Source of the DNA: Hydrogenothermaceae bacterium
GTDB lineage: Bacteria; Aquificota; Aquificia; Aquificales; Hydrogenothermaceae
Assembly (NCBI GenBank): GCA_026418455.1
Contig: JAOABH010000004.1
Location: 496,001 to 560,000, forward strand
DNA: 64,000 bases
Direction: 5' to 3'
Every line of letters starts with the position of its first letter. Positions within the stretch are counted from its first letter, which is position 1. Of the stretch, positions 39,004 to 40,451 are shown piece by piece. The translations under genes and the position numbers were made by a program. The notes beneath the pieces were generated by a model, which saw nothing but the letters and a program-made list of their open reading frames with translations, made no database searches and was not told the origin of the DNA.

Positions 39004-40197
39004 TTATCTTTTAGAAGTAAATCTTCTTCTTGAAGTAGACTGTTTTCTAAACTGCTTTTTTTCTTGCTGTATATTTTCTGAAGATAGATTTATAATCTCT
39101 AAGCTTTTACCTATCTTCTTTTGTATCTGGGCAAGTAATTTATCTTGATCAGGTGTCATAATAGAGATAGCAGTTCCTTCTTTACCAGCTCTTCCTGTTC
39201 TTCCGATTCTATGAATATAACTTTCAACATCTCTTGGAAGTTTGTAATTTATTACAAGTTCAACTCCCTTTATATCCAATCCTCTTGCTGCAACATCTGT
39301 AGCTACCAATATTTTAAGTTCTCCTGTTCTAAACTTCCTTAAAACGGCTTCTCTTTTATTTTGACTAAAATCTCCATGGATAGCTTCTGCGTTAAATCCA
39401 TCTCTTCTTAGATCTCTGGAAACCTCATCTGCTTCAAGTTTAGTTTGGGTAAAGATGATAATTTTTTCAGCGTTATTTTCGATAAGTATATTCTTTAAGG
39501 TTTTATAAAGTTCAGAAGAGGTTACCCTGTATATTATCTGCTTTATCTTCTCTACTGTAACTTCATCTGGTTTAACTTTTATCGTTTCATAATCCGGTTT
39601 TAAAAACTCTTCTGCAAGCTCTAAAATCTCTCTTGGCATAGTAGCAGAAAATAAGAGATTTTGTCTATCTTCCGGAAGTTGAGACATGATAAACTCTATA
39701 TCTTCAATAAATCCCATCTCTAACATTCTATCTGCTTCGTCAAGGACAAAAGTTTTGACGTTGTCAAGTTTCAGATAACCTCTCTCTATAAGGTCCCTAA
39801 CTCTACCAGGAGTTCCTACTATCACAACATCATTACCTTTTTTAAGAAAATCTATCTGATGTTTTATAGATTTTCCTCCATAAACTGCAAGGACAAATAC
39901 TCTTTTGTTTTTACCTAAATCTTTCAGTTCCTTTGCCACTTGTATAGCCAATTCTCTTGTTGGAACTAATACCAGAGCCTGAATCTTTCTTTCTTTTGGA
40001 TTTACTTTTTCAAGTAATGGGATACCAAAAGCTGCCGTTTTTCCAGTTCCAGTTTGTGCTTGAGCAACAATATCCTTTCCGGATTTAACCAGTGGTATTG
40101 CTTTTTGCTGAATCTCTGTAGGTTGAGTATAACCCATAGAGTCGATTGATTTTAGAATCTCCTTTGAGATTCCGAGAGTTTGAAATGAATTTGACAT
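39004..40197 (-). CDS. DEAD-box RNA helicase
   Basis: The 397-residue protein has the full motif series: Q motif with PTEIQQKAIP, AQTGTGKT, PTRELAIQ, VLDEADRML, SAT, the C-terminal helicase motifs ARGLDIKGVEL and HRIGRTGRAG, then a short basic tail (KQFRKQSTSRRRFTSKR). It unwinds structured RNA, for example in ribosome assembly or mRNA decay. Short tail and length resemble RhlE/CshA-type enzymes. An AAGGAGG site lies eight bases before the ATG. The preceding 120 bases hold a long hairpin that may regulate it. Confidence 0.93.
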   Translation of the reverse strand: MSNSFQTLGISKEILKSIDSMGYTQPTEIQQKAIPLVKSGKDIVAQAQTGTGKTAAFGIPLLEKVNPKERKIQALVLVPTRELAIQVAKELKDLGKNKRVFVLAVYGGKSIKHQIDFLKKGNDVVIVGTPGRVRDLIERGYLKLDNVKTFVLDEADRMLEMGFIEDIEFIMSQLPEDRQNLLFSATMPREILELAEEFLKPDYETIKVKPDEVTVEKIKQIIYRVTSSELYKTLKNILIENNAEKIIIFTQTKLEADEVSRDLRRDGFNAEAIHGDFSQNKREAVLRKFRTGELKILVATDVAARGLDIKGVELVINYKLPRDVESYIHRIGRTGRAGKEGTAISIMTPDQDKLLAQIQKKIGKSLEIINLSSENIQQEKKQFRKQSTSRRRFTSKR

Positions 40198-40227
40198 AAA
40201 AATGCCTCCTTAAAATAGTTTAATTTT

Positions 40228-40310
40228 AAAGAGGAAAGATTCTCTCGGAACATTAGATAACACTCTGTGAAATCCCCATCTAATGTTGCGTTAGAGGATG
40301 TTTCCTCTTT
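40228..40310 (-). ncRNA. Structured leader or spacer RNA upstream of the helicase gene
   Basis: A long imperfect hairpin spans 83 bases: outer arms AAAGAGGAAA (40228-40237) and TTTCCTCTTT (40301-40310), a short CTCT/AGAG pairing, and an inner 10-bp stem (40249-40258 with 40278-40287) capped by a 19-base loop. On the minus strand it lies 31 bases before the helicase ATG and 10 bases after tRNA-Ser. No known RNA family is recognised. Confidence 0.5.
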
Positions 40311-40320
40311 TTATTGTAAG

Positions 40321-40408
40321 CGGAGGAGGAGGGATTCGAACCCCCGGAGGGCTGTCAACCCTCAAGTGATTTCAAATCACCCGCTTTCGTCCACTCAGCC
40401 ACTCCTCC
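40321..40408 (-). tRNA. tRNA-Ser (anticodon UGA)
   Basis: An 88-base class II tRNA on the minus strand: acceptor GGAGGAG/CTCCTCC, discriminator G, anticodon stem GGTGA/TCACT with loop TTTGAAA (anticodon TGA), long variable arm with GAGGGTTGACAGCCCTC and T-arm with GGTTCGAATCC. CCA is not encoded. It reads UCA and related serine codons. Confidence 0.95.
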
Positions 40409-40422
40409 GAAAACAGATAAAT

Positions 40423-40451
40423 AATATATAGCAATTCAGACAAAATTGCAA
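40423..40451 (-). promoter_or_regulatory. Promoter of tRNA-Ser, possibly also of the helicase
   Basis: On the minus strand TTGCAA (40451-40446), a 17-base spacer and TATATT (40428-40423) lie 14 bases before the tRNA. No terminator separates tRNA-Ser from the helicase leader, so a joint transcript is possible. Confidence 0.6.

Follow-up and report, generated by a model that had tools for sequence, protein, structure and literature searches.

A conserved leader with two mutually exclusive predicted folds before the DEAD-box RNA helicase gene of Hydrogenothermaceae, a candidate autogenous translational switch

What does the structured RNA between a tRNA gene and a DEAD-box RNA helicase gene do in a Hydrogenothermaceae bacterium? 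We examined this locus in a stretch of 64,000 nucleotides (hereafter the window), in which its features lie on the minus strand. A promoter-like site, TTGCAA-N17-TATATT (40423-40451; 9/12 in a consensus scan), stands upstream of tRNA-Ser(UGA) (40320-40408 by ARAGORN; Rfam tRNA, 57 bits at 40321-40408) and, judged by that scan alone, is likely the promoter of a tRNA-helicase transcript. The 3' end of the tRNA abuts the helicase mRNA leader, which was delimited by sequence and folding at 40198-40320 (covariance-model match 40195-40310) and carries the Shine-Dalgarno sequence (SD) AAGGAGG at 40205-40211, 7 nt before the ATG at 40197. The gene itself (39004-40197) encodes a CshA/DbpA-like DEAD-box RNA helicase of 397 aa, assigned by protein and profile comparison; its best-fitting models are CshA and DbpA, both with scores below the cut-off. 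Among the best 7 of 10 DEAD-domain matches in the genome it alone is recognisable as a DEAD-box RNA helicase; the other six resemble a DECH-box helicase, Mfd, RecG, reverse gyrase, a Snf2 helicase and Cas3. The Cas3-type helicase domain lies at G000:C8:37164-37655 (L118). No shared upstream ORF (leader peptide) was seen by eye in the leaders.

An earlier sequence-only reading had described outer and inner 10-bp stems forming an 83-base hairpin between the tRNA-Ser and the ribosome-binding site of the helicase, and this description proved exact. The outer stem pairs AAAGAGGAAA (40310-40301, hereafter the P arm) with UUUCCUCUUU (40237-40228, the Y arm), the inner stem pairs AACAUUAGAU (40287-40278) with AUCUAAUGUU (40258-40249), and the whole rod spans 40310-40228. 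On the minus strand it folds with -29.8 kcal/mol and a z-score of -5.16, none of 200 shuffled sequences being as good; the same hairpin read on the plus strand has a z-score of -5.80. As a control, the regions upstream of all 41 ORFs of at least 180 aa in the window, helicase included, have a median z-score of -0.25, with two below -2. No Rfam family matches the leader, the matches being at chance level and far below the cut-off. A search for other genomic copies, which the earlier reading had proposed, gave one BLAST match and one significant covariance-model match. The leader is thus present in a single copy in its own genome, which leaves a mobile repeat (MITE, REP), a candidate looked for as several copies, unsupported.

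The same 3' arm has a second partner which the earlier reading had not noticed. Y together with the A-rich bases that follow it is complementary to the SD with its U-rich upstream flank (CCUCUUUAAAAU/AUUUUAAGGAGG, 12 pairs), giving a hairpin CCUCUUUAAAAU-UAAACU-AUUUUAAGGAGG over the SD at 40205-40234. The rod and this Y:SD hairpin share the Y strand and are mutually exclusive. In the fold with the rod P is paired with Y and the SD is free (ON), while in the other P is paired locally with the segment CCUCU at 40293-40297 (L) and Y lies over the SD (OFF); the apical stem-loop AACAUUAGAU...AUCUAAUGUU (40249-40287) fits both. In its loop a GGGG run (40274-40277) is kept in L033-L037 and L041 while other loop bases change; it could serve for protein contact or for pairing with CCUC of the L segment.

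At 37 C the full window leader reaches its energy minimum not as the rod but in the OFF fold, with P paired to the nearby CCUCU; at 70 C the minimum is the rod. The ensemble energy of OFF minus that of ON is -4.6 kcal/mol at 37 C, -2.4 at 50 C, -0.6 at 60 C and +0.9 at 70 C, and the predicted probability that an SD nucleotide is unpaired rises from 0.01 at 37 C to 0.45 at 65 C and 0.61 at 70 C, which places the predicted midpoint between the folds at about 65 C; folding energies at 60-75 C are extrapolations. A stricter measure, the whole SD core unpaired with 30 nt of coding sequence included, gave 0.01 at 70 C in the window, as against 0.61 per nucleotide without those 30 nt, and disfavours the open state; it mixes in unrelated pairings and was set aside. 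Given the 7-sequence clade alignment, RNAalifold arrived at the OFF fold without being steered to it. To release the helicase SD from pairing within 45 nt takes 10.5 kcal/mol; the runner-up among the 41 window ORFs takes 4.9. When folding of a growing chain was followed, P:L formed first, P:Y formed once Y appeared, and at 37 C P:L together with Y:SD came last. After the SD has appeared OFF wins at 37 C in all four leaders tried, while at 65 C L032 and L033 keep the rod and L035 and L041 go over to OFF. For the window leader and its Sulfurihydrogenibium-like relatives, two exclusive folds with one shared strand, one of them covering the SD, are therefore predicted, and in this clade OFF and ON are nearly equal in stability.

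We then asked how widely this arrangement is conserved. BLAST with the leader alone finds leaders only in g1 and partly in g8, and BLAST with the leader and the tRNA is swamped by tRNA genes; relatives were therefore collected through the helicase protein (cut-off E 1e-60). In the groups used here g8 is Sulfurihydrogenibium-type, g7 Persephonella-type and part of g5 Hydrogenothermus; f3 is the sister family and f2 a third family. The helicase was found at this cut-off in 32 of 37 Hydrogenothermaceae genomes; genomes with no match were G006, G019, G026, G035 and G036 in the family, G048 in f3 and G052 in f2. A structured leader precedes the orthologous helicase at 31 of the 32 Hydrogenothermaceae loci and at all six f3 loci, and it is absent at the 12 f2 loci examined out of 16 f2 genomes with a helicase match. 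The exception in the family is G004 (L059), a helicase without the leader, which was kept apart from the 37 leaders. Two helicase matches, L045 (G027) and G038:C34:4220-5386, hold one in-frame TAA each, which is either a sequencing error or a broken gene.

The 37 orthologous leaders, whose limits were set by hand after inspection of the sequences, have a median z-score of -4.1, and 36 of them lie below -2. The controls range from -1.5 to +1.6 at the 12 f2 loci and have a median of -0.2 at DEAD-box homologues of other phyla (n=35 with a usable start, of 37). A covariance model of the clade (R1) marked one place per genome in 11 of 41 genomes at E up to 0.1. Ten of these places are the helicase leader; the eleventh (G004:C83, E 0.045) is weak and lies elsewhere in the genome whose helicase has no leader, so that the element appears confined to the helicase gene. 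The leaders are 81-192 nt long and their interior varies in sequence and length. Those of L038, L039 and L040 (g8), at 191-192 nt, carry a long interior insert and retain the P, L, Y and SD segments. The arm sequences differ between genera while the two-fold pairing layout persists across this thermophile family and its sister family.

Does the match between Y and the SD go beyond what any pyrimidine-rich arm would show towards a purine-rich SD? The Y:SD duplex has z-scores of -3.7 to -5.2 against shuffled Y in all ten leaders of g1, g8 and g10, and it is strong in four of the six f3 leaders (fraction of shuffles as good at most 0.008). One of these four, L093, has an SD that reads CGGGAG and a Y that holds CUCCCG. 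The duplex is intermediate in g5 (fraction 0.008-0.14) and weak in g2, g6 and g9 (0.06-0.19); in g7, g4 and g3 it is weak, U-rich and unexceptional against shuffled Y (0.08-0.26). At 37 C the ON fold of g7, g3 and g4 is favoured over OFF by 5-9.4 kcal/mol, and folding gave no credible OFF fold in g9. In an alignment-free swap test with one leader per genus from 11 genera, matched Y:SD pairing came to -9.7 kcal/mol vs -8.1 for swapped pairs (median p 0.0025, 5-95% range 0.0005-0.012). The SD played no part in the choice of Y and P, so that the test is free of circularity. It indicates that a pairing which covers the SD is kept between lineages, although in g7, g3, g4 and g9 taken singly such pairing is weak or absent. 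Matched P:Y pairing is not independent proof, because P and Y were defined by folding, and the swap test for P:L is weak (median p 0.023, up to 0.24).

The covariation of the rod that the earlier reading had called for was found in part. Four f3 leaders show changes on both sides at 2 of 16 rod pairs (3 distinct), but the rods of the Persephonella-type leaders (g7, g4 and g3) have none of 16; there, 5 of 16 pairs changed on one side only, with 96% of cells paired. Formal covariation of the rod thus appears modest. These counts were made on alignments A5 and A6 only, because MAFFT on the larger sets (A1-A3) brought P and Y out of register, and a position-by-position comparison of pairs was set aside as dominated by register shifts and by the choice of paired positions.

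The tRNA before the leader had led to the suggestion of a processing site separating tRNA from mRNA. This is not the purpose of the element: a -10-like hexamer, in any of five spellings, precedes the P arm by 4-32 nt in 27 of the 31 family leaders, which places the rod at or near the 5' end of the mRNA, and a tRNA occupies that place only in the other four, the window (tRNA-Ser) and three g5 genomes (tRNA-Asn). In the congener G001 the leader has no tRNA before it, and the tRNA-Ser lies about 19 kb away. On this comparison of sequences the tRNA-Ser is incidental to the leader, and the leader 5' end may there be made by tRNA 3' processing instead of by transcription initiation. The tRNA-Asn(GTT) lies directly upstream of the leader at L050:2371-2446, L051:2758-2833 and L053:2763-2838; it is apparently independent of the window tRNA-Ser, which suggests at least two separate origins of such a tRNA between promoter and leader.

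The reading that we favour, with moderate confidence, is a cis-acting autogenous two-state translational switch on the helicase mRNA, in which the helicase would open the rod and so close the SD. The structural part, a conserved leader with both folds, is well supported; the helicase as trigger is what we infer. What was computed is that the leader is conserved, that it has both folds, that these are about equally stable in the Sulfurihydrogenibium-like clade and that Y matches its own SD region better than swapped ones; the course of transcription, which way the switch works and what triggers it belong to the model. During transcription the small P:L hairpin would form first; as Y emerges, P would pair with it into the long rod, and the SD that follows would stay single-stranded and usable. 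If the outer 10-bp duplex of the rod were opened, P would fall back on L and the freed Y would close on the SD in the 12-bp hairpin. DEAD-box proteins typically act on short duplexes with single-stranded A-rich flanks, for which reason the helicase is the presumed opener of the outer duplex. By the order of folding in the growing chain the OFF fold would be reached only by opening the rod, so the simplest agent would be the product of the gene itself. Plentiful helicase would then shut off its own synthesis, which would resume when the helicase is titrated onto other structured RNA. An autoregulatory leader had been proposed from the sequence alone, and it stands as the best reading, being conserved before the ortholog, structured beyond the controls, present in a single copy and provided with an alternative fold that sequesters the SD. 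More tentatively, and with somewhat less than even chances in our estimate, the leader may represent an RNA switch whose input is unwinding activity: a kinetically favoured rod would stay ON until the helicase opens it and the SD is closed, so that the leader would meter free helicase.

The strongest competitor, although unlikely, is that the rod is simply a stem at the 5' end which shields the mRNA from 5'-end-dependent decay or serves as an RNase III site, its match to the SD being a by-product of pyrimidine-rich arms. The rod is indeed conserved more widely than the strong OFF fold, which g7, g3, g4 and g9 do not share, and in 27 of 31 family leaders it stands, as such a stem would, at or close to the 5' end. 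Such a stem could still be all there is in the Persephonella-type leaders, to which this explanation applies best. It leaves unexplained, however, why in g1, g8 and g10 the match to the SD extends over 12 bp including an A/U flank, why SD and Y are both altered in L093, and the outcome of the swap test.

We regard as improbable an RNA thermosensor in which temperature alone picks the fold, shut at low temperature and opened near 65-70 C, with the helicase uninvolved. That the element might respond to temperature had also been suggested, and for the window this is borne out to the extent that the predicted states cross near 65 C; the energies cross between 60 and 70 C in L033, L035 and L037 as well. 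Between species, however, the crossing is not conserved: it ranges from below 20 C in L040, where ON is favoured at every temperature tested, to above 70 C in L041, and the leaders of g7, g3, g4 and g5 and most of f3 are predicted to be ON at all temperatures tested. DEAD-box genes are usually induced by cold, whereas a sensor of this kind would lower helicase production on cooling. With a balance temperature that changes from species to species, a bare thermosensor is less probable than the autogenous switch.

Transcription attenuation, in which the OFF hairpin followed by UUUUU would be an intrinsic terminator just before the AUG, is very doubtful; the scan does flag the hairpin as terminator-like in the window, but it has only three G-C pairs, and a conserved hairpin with a U-run was not found, the U-run being absent in g7, g3 and most f3 leaders. 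Slighter still is the chance that another protein or a ligand binds the apical stem-loop and sets the fold, since against the loop GGGG common to g1, the short g8 and the g10 leaders (alignment A4) stands an interior otherwise variable in sequence and length, with no Rfam match. A metabolite riboswitch was rejected, as no conserved ligand-binding core was seen in this variable interior, and on the plus strand a T-run does follow the outer stem, which had raised the idea of a terminator or antisense RNA there, but it is accompanied only by a promoter match (40191-40219) whose -35 falls in the helicase start codons and whose -10 lies in a spacer that differs in G001.

Little is understood of how bacteria gauge their RNA-helicase activity. 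If the autogenous switch is true, a leader that senses unwinding by which of two folds it adopts would answer this directly and in a testable way, in organisms where only one DEAD-box RNA helicase is recognised, and it would offer a reporter design in which any helicase that opens a 10-bp duplex is assayable by closure of the SD.

Literature searches found no description of this helicase leader. In the parts seen of three comparative RNA surveys, the mentions of helicases or Aquificota include no helicase leader in PMC11109978 (one unrelated mention) and PMC2864571 (none), while PMC8632094 includes the phylum Aquificae and its helicase mentions concern hflX. For the sole DEAD-box helicase of Helicobacter pylori the portion consulted describes control of RNase J, not of the helicase (PMC5874925). 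A close likeness, by description and not by sequence, is the rhlE mRNA of Caulobacter crescentus, also a DEAD-box helicase mRNA with a long structured 5' UTR: expression of a transcriptional fusion is higher without RhlE, which may regulate its own mRNA, but the 186-nt UTR is needed for maximal expression and the passages available describe no two-state SD switch (PMC5472812). Similarly, crhR of Synechocystis needs the activity of its DEAD-box helicase for control of its own expression, but the mechanism is left open and the part of the paper seen describes no leader switch (PMC3485376).

The leader described here has neither a conserved aptamer-like core nor an Rfam match, and its arms change between genera, in which it is unlike translational riboswitches and ribosomal-protein leaders. 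In both of these, exclusive folds of the 5' leader open or close the SD, and the ribosomal-protein leaders are autogenous. The leader of E. coli cspA likewise has two exclusive folds that set access to the SD in response to temperature, with translation favoured in the cold, whereas the fold predicted here opens with heat.
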